DNA of 62,386 nt from Thalassolituus sp. (GTDB lineage Bacteria > Pseudomonadota > Gammaproteobacteria > Pseudomonadales > Oceanobacteraceae). The notes beneath the pieces were generated by a model, which was given only the letters and a program-made list of their open reading frames with translations, searched no databases and was not told the DNA's origin. The stretch's first letter is position 1; each line of letters opens with the position of its first letter. The translations under genes were made by a program, and so were the position numbers. Below, piece by piece: positions 43,586 to 51,019 of the stretch. The stretch lies in assembly GCA_006212115.1 (NCBI GenBank), contig PDUK01000011.1:1-62386 (forward strand), given 5' to 3'.

Positions 43586-43765
43586 ATGTACGATTACCGA
43601 CTCAGCCTGCTAATGCTGGTAGGCATCTATCTTATTTCGCCGGTCATGATGGACTGGTGGTTGGATGATCGTGCCGCGTGGTACCGCCCTTTTGGTATCT
43701 GGGCGCTGCTGATTGCACTCTACATCTGGTTTAACAGCAAACAGCAGGACAACGATGACATTTAG
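43586..43765 (+). CDS. CbrX-like small membrane protein
   Basis: 59 residues, starting MYDYRLSLLMLVGIYLISP, two TM helices (about 5-22 and 37-50) and a polar tail SKQQDNDDI. It overlaps the cbrA start by 11 bases. In Pseudomonas a small frame called cbrX occupies the same place and helps cbrA translation by coupling. Position and size match, but I cannot check sequence homology. Confidence 0.75.
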   Translation: MYDYRLSLLMLVGIYLISPVMMDWWLDDRAAWYRPFGIWALLIALYIWFNSKQQDNDDI

Positions 43766-46694
43766 CCTGAGTCAACTGGCACTGCTGGGTGTCGGTTATC
43801 TGTTATCTCTCTTTCTCGCGGCCTACGCCGTTGAACGCAATTGGTTACCGCGTGCCTGGGTGCGCCACCCACTGGTGTACGTCTTATCCTTGGGTGTCTA
43901 TGCCAGCGCCTGGGCCTTCTACGGCTCAGTAGGTCTGGCAAACCAGTACGGATACGGCTTTCTGGCTTATTACATGGGCATATCCGGTGCCTTTGTCATG
44001 TCGCCGATTCTGCTGCGGCCAATTCTTCAGATCACCCGGACCTACCAACTAAGTTCCCTCGCCGATCTCCTGGCCTTCCGCTATCGCTCGCGCTGGGCCG
44101 GCATTACAGTGTCCATCATTATGCTGGCCGTTGTCGTGCCGATGCTGACACTCCAGATTACCGCCATCGGCGACACGCTTTACCTGCTTAACCGTGAATG
44201 GCCGGTAGAGAATCTTGCACTGGCCTACTGCCTGATCATGATCCTGTTTGCCATCCTGTTTGGCGCGCGACATGTGTCCCCACGCGAGAAACACGAAGGG
44301 CTGGTTTTCGCGATCGCATTTGAGTCTGTTCTCAAGTTGGTGGCTATCCTGATTCTTGGTGGCGTTGTCTTGTTTGGTGTATTCCCTGAAGTAGGCGGAC
44401 TGGAGCAATGGCTGTCAGACAATCAGGCACAACTGGCCCGCGAACAGGTGCGTCTGCAGGACGGTCCATGGCGAACCTTGCTGCTGATGTTCTTCGCCGC
44501 CGCGGTAGCCATGCCGCACATGTTCCATATGGCGTTTACCGAGAACACCAACCCGGCCGCTCTGCGTCAGGCAAGCTGGGGATTCCCGCTGTTCCTGTTG
44601 ATTATGAGCCTGTCGGTGCCCCCGATTCTGTGGGCGGGCTACTACCTCAACGTTGATAGCGACCCTTCGTATTTCGCACTGGGAATTGGTCTGGCGCTTG
44701 AGTCTGAATTTCTGACTGTACTGATTTTCGTTGGTGGCCTGGCCGCTGCGTCCGGCATCATTATCGTGACTACATTGTCGACGGCGGCAATGTTCCTGAA
44801 CCATCTGGTGCTGCCCGTCTACAAACCGGCACCACGCTATGATTTCTACCGTTGGTTGCTATGGATGCGGCGATCCCTGATTGGCGTCATTCTGTTGTTG
44901 GCCTATGGTTTCTACCGTATTGTCGGCTCTGATCTGGACCTCAGCCAATTAGGTATTCTGGGCTTTGTCGCCTGTTCTCAATTCCTGCCCGGCATTCTCG
45001 GATTGTTGTACTGGCCTCAATCCAACCGCAAAGGATTTATTACTGGACTGGTCGTCGGCACCATCACCTGGATCTACGGTCTGCTACTGCCCTTCTGCGA
45101 ACTGGCTCTAGGCTGGGAAGTCCCCTTCTTCCTGCCGCCAACCGACGAAGGTAACTGGCACCTCTCAGCGATCACCGCGATCGGTATTAACTTCTTACTG
45201 TTCGTTATTGTCAGCCTCAGCACCAAGCGCAGCTCTGAAGAGCAAGCCGCTGCTGACGCCTGCTCTATTGATAACGTATCCCGGCCATCGCGCTTGCCGC
45301 TGCAGGCTAGCAACACCAATGAAGTTATCAATGCACTGACTCCATCGCTGGGTCGTTACGTCGCAGAACGAGAGGTGTACCAGGCACTGACCGACCTCGA
45401 GTTGCCCTCCTATGAGGACCGGCCTTATGCACTTCGTCGACTGCGCGCTCGGCTCGAGGCAAACCTGTCTGGTCTGATGGGCCCCACCGTCGCACACGAT
45501 CTGGTAAATCGTTACCTGCCGTTCCAGAAAGACGTGGAACTGACCGAAGACCTCTTTCAACTGGAGCAACGCCTCGAAGGTTTTCAGAGCCGCTTTGGTG
45601 GTCTCGCGAGTGAGCTGGATAACCTGCGTCGTTACCACAGGCAAACACTCGAGCGTCTGCCGATGGGCGTTTGCTCACTGGCGCCGGATGGTGAAGTTCT
45701 GATGTGGAATCAGGTCATGTCGCAGCTGACTGGCATCGGATCACTGGATGTTACCGGCTCACACCTGAGTCGCCTGCCGTCTCCTTGGGGCCCAATGCTG
45801 AGTGACTTCCTGACCAGCGACGCCATGCACAAACACAAGCACCGAGTTGACAGCGCAGGTCGCCCACGCTGGTTTGGTATGCACAAAGCAGTATTGCAAT
45901 CGAGCGGCAGCCAGCCCGGCGGTACCGTTATTCTGATGGAAGATCAGACCGAGACTCAGCTGCTGGAAGAAGAATTGATGCACAGTGAGCGACTGGCCTC
46001 TATTGGTCGGCTGGCGGCGGGGGTCGCACACGAAATTGGTAACCCGATTACCGGTATCGACTGCCTTGCTCAAAGTATGCGGTATGAGACCGATAATCCC
46101 GAATTACTTGAGATGGCCGATCAGATTCAGGAACAAACCAAGCGTGTTACCCGAATTGTTCAATCCTTGATGAACTTCTCGCACGCAGGCCATCACAGTA
46201 CTGATCATGATCCAGTCGATACGACCTACTGTGTAAACGAAGCCATTCAGCTGCTGAAGCTCAGTAAACGCAGCCAGGACATCGACTTTATTAACGATTG
46301 TCCGCCAGAGTTGATGACACTCGGCGATGCACAGCGGCTTGTTCAGGTGTTTATCAACCTGCTTGGTAACGCCCGCGACGCCTCCGAAGCTGGCAGTACC
46401 ATCTGGGTACAGGGTGACATGGACGAGCAACAGATACGCATACGGATTATTGATGACGGCCACGGCATTCCGGCCGAAACCCTGGATCATATTTTCGAGC
46501 CTTTCTTCACTACGAAGGACGTAGGCAAAGGAACGGGGCTGGGGTTATCCCTGGTATACAGCATCATTGAAGAACACTACGGACACATCGCCATCGACAG
46601 TCCGTTAGCGAGTGGACGCGGAACCTGTGTTACAGTCAGTCTTCCGCGTTACGAAGCCACCGAATCTACAGAACTTACGGAACAACCTTCATGA
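43755..46694 (+). CDS. cbrA: Sensor kinase CbrA (transporter-kinase fusion)
   Basis: 979 residues. The N-terminal half is a 12-13 helix SSF/SLC5 sodium-solute symporter domain ([20 protein letters not shown] is its start; [14 protein letters not shown] a conserved loop). Then a linker with a PAS domain (about 640-740, [22 protein letters not shown]), HisKA ([16 protein letters not shown]) and HATPase ([24 protein letters not shown]). CbrA transports and senses amino acids such as histidine in Pseudomonas and phosphorylates CbrB when preferred carbon is scarce. Start ATG 43755 after AGGA, overlapping cbrX. 4-base overlap with cbrB. Confidence 0.95.
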
Positions 46695-48094
46695 GTCATA
46701 TTCTGGTCGTCGAAGACGAAGCCATTATCCGCAATGCGGTGCGTCGCCTGTTGCTTCGCCATCAGCACGAAGTGACCGAGGCAGACTCCGTGGATGCGGC
46801 TAAAGCGCTCGACCTGACCAGCTACGATATGATCATCAGTGACCTGAGACTGCCCGGCGGTCACGGTACCGACCTGATCGAACTGGCAGGCAAGGTGCCC
46901 GTACTGATCATGACCAGCTACGCCAGCCTTCGTTCTGCAGTAGATGCCATGAAGCTCGGTGCAGTGGACTACATAGCCAAACCGTTTGATCACGACGAAA
47001 TGATCGAAGCGGTAAAACGCATACTTGCGAACCGTGAAGCTAACGAAACCAACTCCAGCACCGACGTAGAAGAGCTTCCTGCGCCGGTTCCGTCCTCCGA
47101 AACGGGCATCATTGGTAGTTGTGAACCCATGCAGCTGCTATTTCGTAAAATCGCCAAAGTTGCCCCTACCGATGCCACCGTACTGATTCAAGGTGAGTCG
47201 GGTACCGGTAAAGAACTGGTGGCGAAAGCGATTCACAACCAAAGCCGTCGCGCTAACCAGCCTCTTATCTCCGTTAACTGCGCCGCCATCCCCGAGACTC
47301 TGATCGAATCTGAACTATTTGGTCACGAGAAAGGCGCGTTTACCGGTGCAACTGCGCAACGTCAGGGCCTGGTCGAAGCTGCAGACGGCGGCACATTATT
47401 CCTCGACGAAATCGGCGAACTGCCACTGGAAGCGCAGGCGCGTCTGCTTAGGGTCCTGCAGGAAGGCGAAATTCGTCGCGTTGGTTCGGTTCAGAGCCAG
47501 AAAGTAAACGTGCGTCTGGTCGCGGCAACGCACCGCAACCTTAAAGAACTTTCGTCACAGGGCGAGTTCCGCGAAGACCTTTACTATCGTCTCAACGTCA
47601 TGGAGTTGCACCTGCCTCCGTTACGGGACCGTGGTGAAGACGTCATTGAGATTGCAACTGCGATGCTAGCACGCGCTTGTGAAAAGATGGCTCAGGCGCC
47701 CATGCATTTTAACGCTGACGCTCTCAAAGCCATTCGTGACTACCACTGGCCAGGTAACGTGAGGGAACTGGAAAACGCCGTAGAGCGTTCGGTGATTCTG
47801 GCTGAGTCCGACGAAGTTGCGCCAGACCTGCTGGGTATTGAGGTCAGTCCAGATCGCTACCTCAGCGAAACCATGCGTAACAATCTGATCGAGAACAACC
47901 CGTACCAGCCCACTGAGCAAAACGAAGAGCAACAGGACGACCTGTCACTGGACGACTACTTCGTGCACTTCGTACTCGAAAACGAAGCCGCAATGACAGA
48001 AACAGAACTGGCCAAAAAACTGGGTATCTCACGAAAATCATTGTGGGAGCGCCGTAACCGCCTTGGAATCCCCCGCAAGAAAGGCGGTCGCTAA
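46691..48094 (+). CDS. cbrB: Response regulator CbrB (NtrC family, sigma-54 activator)
   Basis: 467 residues. Receiver with acidic EDE (8-10) and phospho-acceptor Asp51, AAA+ domain with GESGTGKE (168-175) and an intact GAFTGA loop (215-220), Fis-type HTH ([24 protein letters not shown]). It activates sigma-54 promoters, above all those of CrcZ-type sRNAs. Here three such promoters follow directly downstream. ATGA overlap with cbrA. Confidence 0.96.
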
Positions 48095-48111
48095 GCACCG
48101 CCCTCCTTCTA

Positions 48112-48170
48112 CGTTACAGAGTGTTACCTCTGCATCCAATTTGTTACCAACTGGCTCACACTTCGTAACA
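48112..48170 (+). promoter_or_regulatory. CbrB-type activator sites of sRNA unit 1
   Basis: GTTAC half-sites at 48113, 48123 and 48143 (10- and 20-base phasing) and an inverted GTAACA at 48165-48170. TGTTAC/GTAACA are the half-sites I recall for CbrB in Pseudomonas. The inverted site lies 80 bases upstream of the -24 box. Confidence 0.65.
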
Positions 48171-48181
48171 CTTTAGTCTAA

Positions 48182-48201
48182 GTGTCTATAATAATAGACA
48201 C
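48182..48201 (+). terminator. Probable cbrB terminator
   Basis: GTGTCTAT-AATA-ATAGACAC is a perfect 8-bp stem, followed by CTGTATTTTT. It lies 87 bases after the cbrB stop and between the activator sites and promoter of unit 1, so it may also be a DNA operator. Confidence 0.5.
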
Positions 48202-48212
48202 CTGTATTTTTA

Positions 48213-48225
48213 TAAGTCTTTGTTT
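48213..48225 (-). promoter_or_regulatory. IHF-type site of sRNA unit 1
   Basis: TAAGTCTTTGTTT matches the reverse IHF consensus YAANNNNTTGATW with one mismatch. 19 bases separate it from the -24 box. Confidence 0.5.
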
Positions 48226-48244
48226 TTAATAGAAATTAAGAACC

Positions 48245-48260
48245 TGGCACGCGTTTCGCT
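48245..48260 (+). promoter_or_regulatory. Sigma-54 promoter P1
   Basis: TGGCAC-N5-TCGCT with GG-N10-GC spacing. Start expected about 48271. Confidence 0.85.
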
Positions 48261-48270
48261 TAATAGACAT

Positions 48271-48527
48271 TACTGATCTGGTGTCCATCAATAAAAATAA
48301 CAAAGAGACACCACGACAGTGGGAGGCGCACCAATAAAAATAACAAAGCGCCAGCAATTCCCGACCTCATAACAAGAATGACAATGGCCACCATTGTTAG
48401 TTTCGAATGAGCAGAAGCAGAATAAGAATAAAAACAGACGGTCTGCCCATTCAAAACGACAATGACACCTGTGGCAGCACAGAATAATAAGAATACGCCC
48501 CTGAAGAGCCGCCTACGCGGCTTTTTT
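48271..48527 (+). ncRNA. CrcZ-like small RNA, unit 1 (about 257 nt)
   Basis: Runs from the sigma-54 start to the terminator at 48507-48527. A-rich (AANAANAA-type) motifs at 48290-48305, 48333-48348 (identical 16-mers AATAAAAATAACAAAG), 48370-48385, 48420-48435 and 48481-48495. The first sits in a 21-nt loop closed by TGGTGTC/GACACCA (48279-48285/48307-48313), the second in an 18-nt loop closed by GGCGC/GCGCC (48325-48329/48348-48352), the fourth in a loop closed by GAATG-GCAG/CTGC-CATTC. In Pseudomonas such motifs bind Hfq/Crc and lift catabolite repression. Position right after cbrB matches crcZ. Confidence 0.88.
48507..48527 (+). terminator. Terminator of sRNA unit 1
   Basis: AGCCGC-CTAC-GCGGCT then TTTTT. 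Confidence 0.93.
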
Positions 48528-48562
48528 ATTGTCTCTCGTTCGTGTCTCCGCTCTCCGCCAGG

Positions 48563-48652
48563 GTTACATCTCTGTTACCTACGACCAAAGTGTTACCTCC
48601 TGCTCCCCCAACTGTTACCAATAGACATGTGTCAGCGTAATGTTACGTAACA
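48563..48652 (+). promoter_or_regulatory. CbrB-type activator sites of sRNA unit 2
   Basis: GTTAC at 48563, 48574, 48592, 48614 and 48642. The last is fused with GTAAC into the perfect palindrome TGTTACGTAACA (48641-48652). GTAAC lies 79 bases upstream of the -24 box. The richest of the three clusters. Confidence 0.68.
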
Positions 48653-48693
48653 CTTTCTGTAAAAATGCGCCTAAAATCCAACCAGCAAAACAC

Positions 48694-48706
48694 TAAGCCA
48701 TTGATT
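48694..48706 (-). promoter_or_regulatory. IHF-type site of sRNA unit 2
   Basis: TAAGCCATTGATT is a perfect match to YAANNNNTTGATW, 19 bases before the -24 box. The stretch CTAAGCCATTGAT is shared with unit 3. Confidence 0.7.
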
Positions 48707-48725
48707 TGTATACATTTTAAAAAAT

Positions 48726-48741
48726 TGGCACGGTCTTGGCA
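48726..48741 (+). promoter_or_regulatory. Sigma-54 promoter P2
   Basis: TGGCAC-N5-TGGCA with GG-N10-GC spacing. Start expected about 48752. Confidence 0.88.
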
Positions 48742-48751
48742 TTACTATACA

Positions 48752-48970
48752 TACAACAGCACGACACTGATAAAAATAACAAAGTCGGCTGTATGAACCT
48801 GCTACTGAAATGAAAACAATAAAAATAATGAGCGGGTTCGAGAAGTACGGAAGAACAAAAAGAAGAGCTTAGAAGAAAAAGACAGTCAGGCCACTAACAA
48901 TAAAAATAATACAGGCGTCCACGATAAGACTGCACGAAAGAATCCAGAAAGCCGCATCAGCGGCTTTTTT
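48752..48970 (+). ncRNA. CrcZ-like small RNA, unit 2 (about 219 nt)
   Basis: Three A-rich motifs, each in a hairpin loop. 48770-48783 lies within an 18-nt loop closed by CGAC/GTCG and ACAGC/GCTGT. 48813-48829 lies in a 27-nt loop closed by the 9-bp stem GAACCTGCT/AGCGGGTTC (48795-48803/48831-48839, one GU). 48893-48911 lies in a loop closed by GCC/GGC and CAGTC/GACTG. A purine-rich stretch (48851-48881, rich in AGAAG and AAAAAG) lies between the second and third. No ribosome site or convincing frame. Confidence 0.88.
48949..48970 (+). terminator. Terminator of sRNA unit 2
   Basis: AAGCCGC-ATCA-GCGGCTT then TTTT. Confidence 0.93.
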
Positions 48971-49044
48971 ATTGCCTGAAATTTGTGATCGGCGCCTCTG
49001 AGTACTCCCTACCCGTAACTCGCCTGACTGAACGTTTACTCAGT

Positions 49045-49101
49045 GTTACGTTTCCTGAAGTTTGTTACCTATGGGTTACACATTACGTAATCTTTCGTAA
49101 C
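49045..49101 (+). promoter_or_regulatory. CbrB-type activator sites of sRNA unit 3
   Basis: GTTAC at 49045, 49064 and 49075, the palindrome ATTACGTAAT at 49082-49091 and GTAAC at 49097-49101, 81 bases upstream of the -24 box. The 49075-to-49097 offset (22) equals the 48143-to-48165 offset in unit 1. Confidence 0.66.
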
Positions 49102-49145
49102 GCTCTGATTAACAAACGCCCTAAGGAAGCGAACAAAAAAAACGC

Positions 49146-49158
49146 TAAGCCATTGATA
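49146..49158 (-). promoter_or_regulatory. IHF-type site of sRNA unit 3
   Basis: TAAGCCATTGATA is a perfect match to YAANNNNTTGATW, again 19 bases before the -24 box. Confidence 0.7.
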
Positions 49159-49177
49159 AATAACGATTTTAAAAAGT

Positions 49178-49193
49178 TGGCACGCCATTAGCT
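49178..49193 (+). promoter_or_regulatory. Sigma-54 promoter P3
   Basis: TGGCAC-N5-TAGCT with GG-N10-GC spacing. Start expected about 49204. Confidence 0.85.
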
Positions 49194-49203
49194 TTATCTA
49201 GTT

Positions 49204-49512
49204 CAGAGAGCAACGCTACTGATAAAAATAATAAAAGCGAAGCCTCGGATGATCCTGGATCGAAGTGCACTAATAACAATAACAAAGTGCTTCAGACAGG
49301 ATCAGGTAGTGAAGACAGGCAAACAACAATAATAACAATGCCTGAGTGACAAATGTTTTGAATGCGCATCAAGCGCCGATAACAATAACAAGAAATGAGG
49401 CAGGGGATGCCCATTCAAAACATCTGTCAACATCGTAGCCGGGCACAATAACAATAACATCCGGCACGAACCTGACTCCAAAGCCGCCCTGTTGACCCAG
49501 CGCGGCTTTTTC
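49204..49512 (+). ncRNA. CrcZ-like small RNA, unit 3 (about 309 nt)
   Basis: Five A-rich motifs, all in loops: 49221-49235 (stem CGCT/AGCG); 49271-49286 (GCAC/GTGC, enclosed by GATCCTG/CAGGATC); 49322-49338 (6-bp CAGGCA/TGCCTG with a pure AAC/AAT loop); 49378-49391 (GCC/GGC inside GCATC/GATGC inside a near-perfect 18-bp stem, 49347-49364/49412-49429); 49443-49460 (GCCGG/CCGGC). This is the most motif-rich of the three and the closest to the textbook CrcZ picture of repeated CA-motif loops. Confidence 0.9.
49481..49512 (+). terminator. Terminator of sRNA unit 3
   Basis: AAGCCGC ... GCGGCTT with an inner CTG/CAG pair, then TTTTCTTTG. A longer loop than in units 1 and 2 but the same outer stem sequence. 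Confidence 0.85.
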
Positions 49513-49561
49513 TTTGTTCTGATTTTGCCTCAGGGCCAGATCCGGCCAACACATACTGTTC

Positions 49562-49597
49562 AGGCACCTCTGAACAACTCATGGGTGCCTTTATTTT
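49562..49597 (+). terminator. Second hairpin between sRNA unit 3 and pcnB
   Basis: AGGCACC (49562-49568) and GGTGCCT (49584-49590) close a 15-base loop, followed by TTATTTTG. Either a back-up terminator or part of the pcnB leader. Confidence 0.55.
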
Positions 49598-49657
49598 GTG
49601 TCCGACCCGCCTTAACGGTAAACTCGCTCGCAGATTAACCAGAGAAACACTTTCATC

Positions 49658-51019
49658 GTGACCCTGATCAACCGAGTCAAAAAGCTGTTTAGCCAGAAAG
49701 CCGATGCTAATGACGTGCAGTTACGCGTCATTCCACGCGACGAGCATTCCATTTCCCGCACGAATATCAGCGAACCCGCTCTCAAGGTGCTGTATCGGCT
49801 GCGAAAAGCGGGCTATGGCGCCTACCTCGTTGGCGGCGGCGTGCGTGACAACCTGCTGGGTTTGTCGCCCAAGGACTTTGACGTTGCAACGGATGCGACA
49901 CCGGAACAGGTCAATGGGCTGTTTCGTAACTCGCGCCTGATTGGTCGACGGTTTAAGTTGGTTCACGTTGTATTTGGACGCGAAGTTATTGAGGTCGCCA
50001 CCTTCCGTGCGCCACCTTCTGAAGAGCATTCCGACAAGGTCTCCCGTCAGGGCGATCAGGGCATGATTCTGCGTGATAACGTCTACGGTAACAAAGACGA
50101 AGACGCCATGCGTCGTGACTTCACTATCAACGCGCTGTACTACAACATCGATGACTTCAGTGTGCATTCCTACGCTGGCGGATGGGAAGACATCCAGGCT
50201 CGACAGATTCGACTGATTGGTGACCCTGCAACCCGCTACCGTGAAGATCCGGTGCGCATGCTGCGCGCGATACGTTTCGCAGTAAAACTCGGCTTTGATA
50301 TCGAAGAAAAGACCGCGGCCCCGATTCGTGACATGGCCCCGCTGATGACCCAGATTCCAGCGGCCCGACTATTTGAAGAGTCGTTGAAACTGATTCTTGC
50401 CGGCAGCGCGCTCGACACCATGCGCATGCTGCGTGAATACAACTTATTCGAGCCACTGTTCCCTGCTGCCGAACAGCGCATGCAGGACGACGAGTACGCG
50501 GTGTCTCTGATCGAGAACACCATGCGTAACACCGACGCCCGCATTCAGTCGGGTAAGTCGGTAACACCCTATTTCTTCCTAGCTGCACTGCTGTGGCCGC
50601 AACTGAATAAGGTGCGCCAGAAATACGAAGACGACGGCATGGCGCCGCACCCTGCTCTCCAGAAAGCCGCAGACAAAGTACTGCGGGATCAGGTAAAAGC
50701 CACCGCGATTCCGAAGCGTTTCTCGATCCCGATGCGTGAGATCTGGGAGCTGCAGCTAAGACTTCCTAAAATACGCAGTCGTAAAGCACCTGAGCTGACT
50801 CAGCATCCACGCTTCCGTGCGGCCTACGACTTCCTGTTGTTACGTCAGCAGTCTGGCGAAGAGTTGCAGGAGCTATGTGACTTCTGGACTGAGATTCAGG
50901 TTGATCATCCACCCGCCACTTCTCATAGCCAGAACCGCCACAACGACGGCGGAGATCAGCGCGGTGATGGGCAACGACGCAGACGCCCTCGTCGCCGTCG
51001 GAATAACAGCCGCAACTGA
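49658..51019 (+). CDS. pcnB: Poly(A) polymerase I
   Basis: 453 residues. Class II nucleotidyltransferase: GGGVRDNLLGLSPKDFDVATDA holds the G[GS] and DxD motifs, then RRFKLVHV, MRRDFTINALYYN and RYREDPVRMLRAIRFAVKLGF. The C-terminal RPRRRRNNSRN tail is strongly basic, as in PcnB and unlike CCA-adding enzymes. It adds poly(A) to RNA 3' ends and so speeds decay, including of sRNAs. Start GTG 49658. In Pseudomonas pcnB also follows crcZ. Confidence 0.94.
   Translation: MTLINRVKKLFSQKADANDVQLRVIPRDEHSISRTNISEPALKVLYRLRKAGYGAYLVGGGVRDNLLGLSPKDFDVATDATPEQVNGLFRNSRLIGRRFKLVHVVFGREVIEVATFRAPPSEEHSDKVSRQGDQGMILRDNVYGNKDEDAMRRDFTINALYYNIDDFSVHSYAGGWEDIQARQIRLIGDPATRYREDPVRMLRAIRFAVKLGFDIEEKTAAPIRDMAPLMTQIPAARLFEESLKLILAGSALDTMRMLREYNLFEPLFPAAEQRMQDDEYAVSLIENTMRNTDARIQSGKSVTPYFFLAALLWPQLNKVRQKYEDDGMAPHPALQKAADKVLRDQVKATAIPKRFSIPMREIWELQLRLPKIRSRKAPELTQHPRFRAAYDFLLLRQQSGEELQELCDFWTEIQVDHPPATSHSQNRHNDGGDQRGDGQRRRRPRRRRNNSRN

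Follow-up and report, generated by a model that had tools for sequence, protein, structure and literature searches.

The small RNA (sRNA) CrcZ of Pseudomonas, the closest described counterpart of the locus analysed here, was proposed to carry the proteins Hfq and Crc like beads on a string (PMC6422490). The distal face of Hfq binds six A-R-N triplets, 18 nucleotides (nt), along a circular path (PMC6422490). Transcription of crcZ is IHF-dependent and CbrB of P. putida recognizes TGTTAC/GTAACA subsites that lie 20-25 bp apart in the order forward, reverse, reverse (F, R, R) (PMC6296734). The CbrAB system was called exclusive to Pseudomonadaceae (PMC8871633, PMC6296734). Here we describe the segment between cbrB and pcnB in a stretch of 62,386 nt of contig PDUK01000011.1 from Thalassolituus sp. 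(the window), whose genus is that of Thalassolituus oleivorans and lies outside Pseudomonadaceae. This segment carries a tandem of three CrcZ-like units, every one of them equipped with predicted CbrB sites, a sigma-54 promoter and a terminator. Their predicted RNAs bear A-rich motifs mostly in loops and would very probably act jointly as a decoy titrating Hfq-Crc.

The cbrB-pcnB interval and its homology to CrcZ

The interval (48095-49657, 1563 nt) is flanked directly by cbrB and pcnB, the position of crcZ in Pseudomonas. The original prediction, made by reading the window, considered it non-coding and divided it in three tandem units, each with a cluster of activator sites and a -24/-12 promoter. 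No convincing small open reading frame (ORF) was found inside the interval, the longest wholly internal one having 68 amino acids, and the division is borne out by motif counts compared to 1000 dinucleotide shuffles. Promoters were searched by their GG-N10-GC core and scored by the matches out of 12 to TGGCACGN4TTGCW. Three with a score of at least 9/12 are present in the interval (shuffles: mean 0.14, maximum 2), together with 18 copies of AAYAAYAA (0.55, maximum 4) and 10 of TGTTAC/GTAACA (1.1, maximum 5). The three promoters (48245, 48726 and 49178) reach 11/12 each while other window sites with the same core stay at 10/12 or below. The reverse strand of the interval has no promoter and no AAYAAYAA. 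In all three units sequences matching CbrB half-sites precede the sigma-54 promoter, an IHF-like site is positioned between the two, and several A-rich (ARN/CA) motifs and a terminator are found downstream.

The detected promoter begins 27 nt ahead of the Rfam CrcZ 5' end at 20 Pseudomonadaceae loci, and the ruler calibrated on Rfam places the starts of the three predicted RNAs at 48272, 48753 and 49205, at most 1 nt from those first proposed. The A-rich motifs, initially counted as 5, 3 and 5, amount to 3, 3 and 5 clusters in a strict scan and to five per unit when the relaxed motif AANAANAA is used. Folding of the predicted RNAs relative to shuffled sequences gives z values of -5.9, -3.3 and -6.9 for units 1, 2 and 3, respectively. 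An intrinsic terminator had been assigned to every unit. That of unit 1 is listed by a consensus terminator scan, which returned neither of the other two, also when 48900-49660 was rescanned; for units 2 and 3 the terminator was assigned by our own scripts, folding and conservation. Read-through from cbrB or leaky terminators could make the array mainly a source of nested long RNAs, as described for cbrB-crcZ in Azotobacter vinelandii (PMC6292655) and for the tandem PrrF genes of P. aeruginosa, which yield the read-through RNA PrrH (PMC4211561). This is improbable for the present locus, each unit having a conserved hairpin-plus-U terminator and a promoter of its own.

The relationship to CrcZ was assessed with a sequence-only profile (R1) derived from 64 units of the host family, covering the promoter to the first hairpins, with no Pseudomonas in the training set; its matches to the window itself are by construction. 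When run on 20 Pseudomonadaceae loci that Rfam defines as CrcZ, R1 aligned to the promoter and 5' part in all 20, with E values from 1.7e-11 to 2.4e-4. By this profile the units and CrcZ are therefore homologous, although the Rfam threshold is not attained. The CrcZ-like identity, first argued from place, half-sites, promoters, A-rich motifs and terminators, thus gains independent support. Among 26 loci outside the host family, these 20 included, a long promoter match was obtained in 25, Gilvimarinus gilvus being missed. A composite detector (promoter of at least 9/12, activator site and one A-rich motif) gave 4 hits in 1.52 million strand-bases of control loci and, when two motifs were required, exactly one unit within 1.5 kb at all 20 Pseudomonadaceae CrcZ loci. 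Eighteen of these 20 loci lie between cbrB and pcnB and have one unit each, in agreement with the single crcZ originally assumed for this place in Pseudomonas. In a Pseudomonadaceae metagenome-assembled genome (L008) cbrB is present and neither pcnB nor a CrcZ-like unit was found behind it.

Units 1 (48404-48457) and 3 (49347-49429) have in common a large hairpin with GAATG...CATTCAAAAC arms, absent from unit 2. It was rejected as a general feature because, among the loci scanned, both arms are present only in seven loci of the genus and two of genus g8 (L125, L129). The GGA at 49405-49407 within this hairpin is invariant in all eight aligned unit-3 sequences and is reminiscent of CsrA/RsmA sites.

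The gene order in the window is dksA, gluQRS, a 59-amino acid reading frame, cbrA, cbrB, the non-coding interval, pcnB and folK (Table 1). Residues 1-591 of CbrA match the structure of the Pseudomonas CbrXA SLC5-STAC part (10ED, E 6e-210) and are followed by PAS, HisKA and HATPase domains. The adjoining gene codes the sigma-54 response regulator CbrB, which is 65% identical to CbrB of Pseudomonas fildesensis (residues 1-466). The 59-amino acid frame (43586-43765) overlaps the start of cbrA at a position that matches cbrX described in P. putida and has no Pfam match.

Table 1. Features of the cbrAB-pcnB locus in window coordinates
Feature	Positions	Strand	Basis
cbrA, sensor kinase (SLC5-STAC part, PAS, HisKA, HATPase)	43755..46694	+	structure match and domains
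cbrB, NtrC-type sigma-54 activator	46691..48094	+	Response_reg and Sigma54_activat domains
CbrB-type sites of unit 1, a cluster of four GTTAC/GTAAC, the one nearest the promoter centred at about -105	48112..48170	+	sequence match
Unit 1 IHF-like site, one mismatch	48213..48225	-	IHF consensus
Unit 1 -24/-12 promoter TGGCACGCGTTTCGCT	48245..48260	+	11/12
Unit 1 predicted sRNA, terminator 48505-48527	48272..48527	+	fold, orthologues, covariation, terminator
CbrB-type sites of unit 2, a cluster of six GTTAC/GTAAC, the one nearest the promoter centred at about -104	48562..48652	+	sequence match
Unit 2 IHF-like site, perfect	48694..48706	-	IHF consensus
Unit 2 -24/-12 promoter TGGCACGGTCTTGGCA	48726..48741	+	11/12
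Unit 2 predicted sRNA, terminator 48948-48970	48753..48970	+	fold, orthologues, terminator
CbrB-type sites of unit 3, a cluster of five GTTAC/GTAAC, the one nearest the promoter centred at about -106	49014..49102	+	sequence match
Unit 3 IHF-like site, perfect	49146..49158	-	IHF consensus
Unit 3 -24/-12 promoter TGGCACGCCATTAGCT	49178..49193	+	11/12
Unit 3 predicted sRNA, terminator 49480-49512	49205..49512	+	fold, loops, covariation, terminator
Second terminator-like hairpin ahead of pcnB	49562..49597	+	own terminator script
pcnB, poly(A) polymerase	49658..51019	+	TIGR01942 above cut-off

Predicted A-rich hairpin loops

Minimum-energy folding places eight of the 11 strict A-rich clusters of the window in hairpin loops, which measure 18, 24, 21, 18, 18, 17, 21 and 16 nt; all five motifs of unit 3 have such a predicted location. 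Across the family units with a found terminator 164 of 218 clusters are in predicted loops, whereas for CrcZ of Pseudomonadaceae the figure is 14 of 72. A stem of 5 bp or more closes 53% of 364 family clusters versus 14% when the flanks are swapped. Closure also exceeds the swapped control in the other families of the order (20% versus 6%) and in Pseudomonadaceae (28% versus 11%), and the trait is therefore shared, being much stronger in the host family.

The commonest loop size in the family is 18 nt, seen in 51 of the 193 closed clusters where swapped flanks would give 4.3, and this length equals the footprint of one Hfq hexamer; in Pseudomonadaceae 11 of 20 loops have 19 nt. Kinship among genomes inflates these loop counts. 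With one genome per genus the modal loop is still of 18 nt (11/41), and the 51 hairpins with this loop carry 35 different stems. Within the 18-nt loops, A occupies the first position of triplets 2-6 in 84% of cases, the second in 98% and the third in 45%, while the first triplet fits less well; since A-A-N was part of the cluster definition, only the phase of the triplets relative to the stem is informative. We tentatively propose, with somewhat less than even confidence, that these RNAs are modular, Hfq-counting decoys in which a six-triplet loop would serve each hexamer and loops or units would be gained or lost to set the strength of catabolite repression in a family with oil-degrading marine members, in a circuit thought to be confined to Pseudomonadaceae.

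Distribution, age and divergence of the arrays

Of 93 related genomes, 89 encode a CbrB-like protein at E <= 1e-100, the lowest identity being 48%. In the host family 40 of 44 genomes have pcnB in place, and two units are found in 24 of them, three in 14, four in 2 and a single one in none (R1 sees a third unit in G039). Two to four CrcZ-like genes are thus present at cbrB in every member of the host family whose locus is intact and visible. The search of related genomes suggested along with the original prediction thus shows an arrangement that is not peculiar to one genome and is conserved across the family. The four remaining genomes are one in which a contig end cuts the interval (G005), two whose contigs end near cbrB (G037, G041) and G015, without pcnB at this place. 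In the latter no pcnB follows cbrB and two units are found about 11.6 kb apart on opposite strands (C1:386388-386487 and 398084-398162), the array having apparently been split by rearrangement.

The 29 genomes of other families with pcnB in place have one unit (20 genomes), none (5) or two (4); ten others without pcnB on the examined stretch, with 0, 1 or 2 units, were excluded from this count. R1 matches 26 of 44 loci of these families, four of them twice, six distant loci (L241-L246) having been scanned by R1 alone. Contrary to the published view of a system exclusive to Pseudomonadaceae, CbrB-like proteins and mostly single CrcZ-like units are therefore observed in the other families of the order.

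Pseudomonadaceae have RF01675 matches in 94 of 99 genomes, 91 of them above the cut-off, with two to five copies in 43 genomes. There is no match at E <= 1e-5 in G104, G121, G133 and G145, which are all four sampled genomes of genus g67, nor in G130. Copies that share a contig are separated by about 6.0 kb or more (minimum in G101), a spacing that considers same-contig copies only, under stricter search filters that lose weak matches. That additional Pseudomonas copies stay at separate loci, as previously stated, holds across the 99 genomes searched. In nine genomes of the window's genus every match to R1 that scores above 30 bits lies at cbrB and nothing elsewhere exceeds 21.1 bits, in a search of limited sensitivity because 150 candidates per genome were scored and the truncated array of G005 itself reaches only 25 bits. 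Seven genomes of genus g3 (G010, G021, G025, G029, G033, G039 and G043) have additional matches to R1 that are unlinked, score 24-30 bits and span the promoter and first hairpin; these are possibly a CrcY-like copy, an array fragment or a sigma-54 leader.

The units have position-specific counterparts. Unit 1 is 68-82% identical to those of five congeners and unit 3 is 79% identical in three congeners and 58-66% in G002 and G003; in G006 the nearest match of window unit 1 is unit 2 (61%). Across genera the best match of the last, pcnB-proximal unit is the last unit of the other genome in 669 of 806 comparisons (339 expected), a figure that becomes 467 of 806 when only the first 150 nt are used. 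Judging from these identities, the units are old and have orthologues specific to their position. In G003 (L121) units 3 and 4 have 93% RNA identity and an identical promoter region of 156 nt, which by sequence is a recent tandem duplication of a whole unit; copy number is therefore still changing.

Stems of unit 3 have 12 pairs changed on both sides versus 6.6 in shuffled alignments, and those of unit 1 have 7 versus 2.3; none of 500 shuffles was as high in either case and slid controls gave at most 5 and 3 pairs. The structures were derived from the same alignments and three sequences are near-identical, which both favour the structures. The fragmentation of the source assembly (3.28 Mb, 84.5% complete, 224 contigs) could raise the suspicion that units 2 and 3 are remnants of duplication or were created by misassembly. 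This explanation is already contradicted and retains practically no likelihood: the arrangement recurs in other genomes including one made of a single contig (3,920,328 bp), the unit 3 stems covary, and a recent duplicate looks different, as illustrated by the G003 pair.

The main rival to a joint decoy is that the units are sub-functionalised, differing in affinity for Hfq/Crc or having other partners, so that the array would encode different responses. In its favour, the window units are only 48-57% identical among themselves, a level close to background, and retain separate sets of orthologues; the pcnB-proximal unit forms a separate lineage across genera, and a large hairpin is carried by units 1 and 3 but not by unit 2. 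The units nevertheless keep a common promoter logic, the first A-rich hairpin and the family-wide loop peak, and the variation in their number, 2 to 4, is compatible with dose tuning. On balance we regard sub-functionalisation as unlikely.

Proposed decoy function and comparison with known systems

The partners required for a joint decoy are encoded in the genus. Hfq and RpoN are found in 9 of 9 genomes, Hfq of the window genome being nearly identical to that of P. aeruginosa over 75 residues. Crc was inspected in four genomes, where it adjoins a pyrE-like gene (the neighbour was named by reading its sequence), the accepted copy sitting between rph-like and pyrE-like genes. Its best match in the Protein Data Bank (PDB) is P. 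aeruginosa Crc in the two genomes tested (that of the window and G006), and a PF03372 match grouped with Crc by profile range occurs in all nine genomes. Two other candidates for Crc were rejected upon our own reading, L223 for its sequence and dsbA-like neighbour and L206 for its xthA-like sequence and thiI-like neighbour.

By analogy with Pseudomonas, poor carbon supply would activate CbrA-CbrB (PMC4063720, PMC6422490) and CbrB with sigma-54, probably assisted by IHF, would fire all three promoters. Each A-rich loop would take one Hfq hexamer, together with Crc, off mRNA leaders, and catabolic genes would then be translated. Separate promoters would make the output additive and separate terminators would keep the products short. 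With two to four separate units, a given signal would yield a multiple of the promoter output and of the binding sites, and copy number is therefore likely a dose setting of catabolite repression. The array has 11 strict A-rich clusters, compared to about 3.6 per CrcZ locus in Pseudomonadaceae (72 in 20 loci). Relief of Hfq/Crc repression may be graded or dose-amplified. The uptake of Hfq-Crc by the decoy would likely help the cell use poorer foods.

Several observations weigh against such a function or against the CrcZ-like identity of the units. No window sequence reaches the RF01675 gathering score (95 bits), so the covariance model originally suggested as a check rejects the units; the best score is 13.1 bits, and the weak hits of 9-13 bits were discarded and given no weight because the model also hits 9 of 14 unrelated control genomes at E <= 10. 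Most CbrB-type sites in the window are forward and the one closest to each promoter is reverse, an arrangement that differs from the F, R, R order of P. putida. Unit 2 is the weakest of the three: its identity is 72-73% in three congeners and at background (52 and 42%) in two of five, and its fold has 8 pairs changed on both sides with an unfavourable covariation term. The number of further pair types does not exceed shuffles in unit 1 (291/500 as high) and does so only slightly in unit 3 (13/500). Taken by itself, the window closes its A-rich clusters with stems no more often than the control allows (45% versus 23% with swapped flanks, maximum 55%). The NCBIfam exodeoxyribonuclease III model also passes its cut-off for Crc, as expected for that superfamily. 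A-rich motifs are only modestly enriched at putative target starts, with 20 at -40 to +19 of 662 crudely predicted genes (0.8 Mb of G006) versus 8.6 per 60 nt of upstream flank and 3 downstream.

New here are the A-rich motifs in predicted loops that peak at 18 nt. No paper pairing CrcZ with Oceanospirill* was found in the searched literature, outside of which are many subscription papers, and no tandem crcZ array appeared in titles or abstracts among the matches listed; full texts were mostly outside the search and may hold a report. A marine metatranscriptome study mentioning Marinobacter reports cbrAB transcripts whose owner is not named in the passages concerned (PMC5073097). The CbrAB-CrcZ-Hfq/Crc circuit would be extended beyond Pseudomonadaceae to a family that includes T. 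oleivorans, which emerges after oil spills (PMC3630401). Arrays of 2, 3 and 4 units provide a natural copy-number series for studying the effect of decoy dose on catabolite repression. The 18-nt loop rule is a concrete structural prediction for the loading of decoy RNAs with Hfq and Crc and could help to explain catabolic gene control in these bacteria.

The array resembles CrcZ of Pseudomonas (RF01675) in its cbrB-pcnB place, sigma-54 promoter, TGTTAC/GTAACA sites, A-rich Hfq motifs and a promoter and first hairpin alignable by R1. CrcZ is, however, one gene of about 400 nt, while the host family has two to four shorter tandem units, far below the Rfam cut-off, whose A-rich clusters are mostly in predicted loops, unlike those of CrcZ. 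The second copies CrcY and CrcX also provide several CbrB-driven decoys per genome. They are dispersed in Pseudomonadaceae, whereas in the Thalassolituus genus all strong copies are at cbrB; crcY of A. vinelandii stands apart, between convergent genes (PMC6292655). In PrrF1/PrrF2, OmrA/OmrB and AbcR1/2, related sRNA genes likewise lie next to each other and may be redundant (PMC4211561). Those sRNAs base-pair with mRNAs, whereas the likely target of the array is a protein and its two to four units are under an adjacently encoded sigma-54 activator. Csr/Rsm decoys are multicopy RNAs that titrate a protein with motifs in loops, binding CsrA/RsmA via GGA loops. They are tabulated as 2-3 distal siblings (PMC4211561). 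In place of their GGA loops the array has ARN loops of about 18 nt, which are likely for Hfq.

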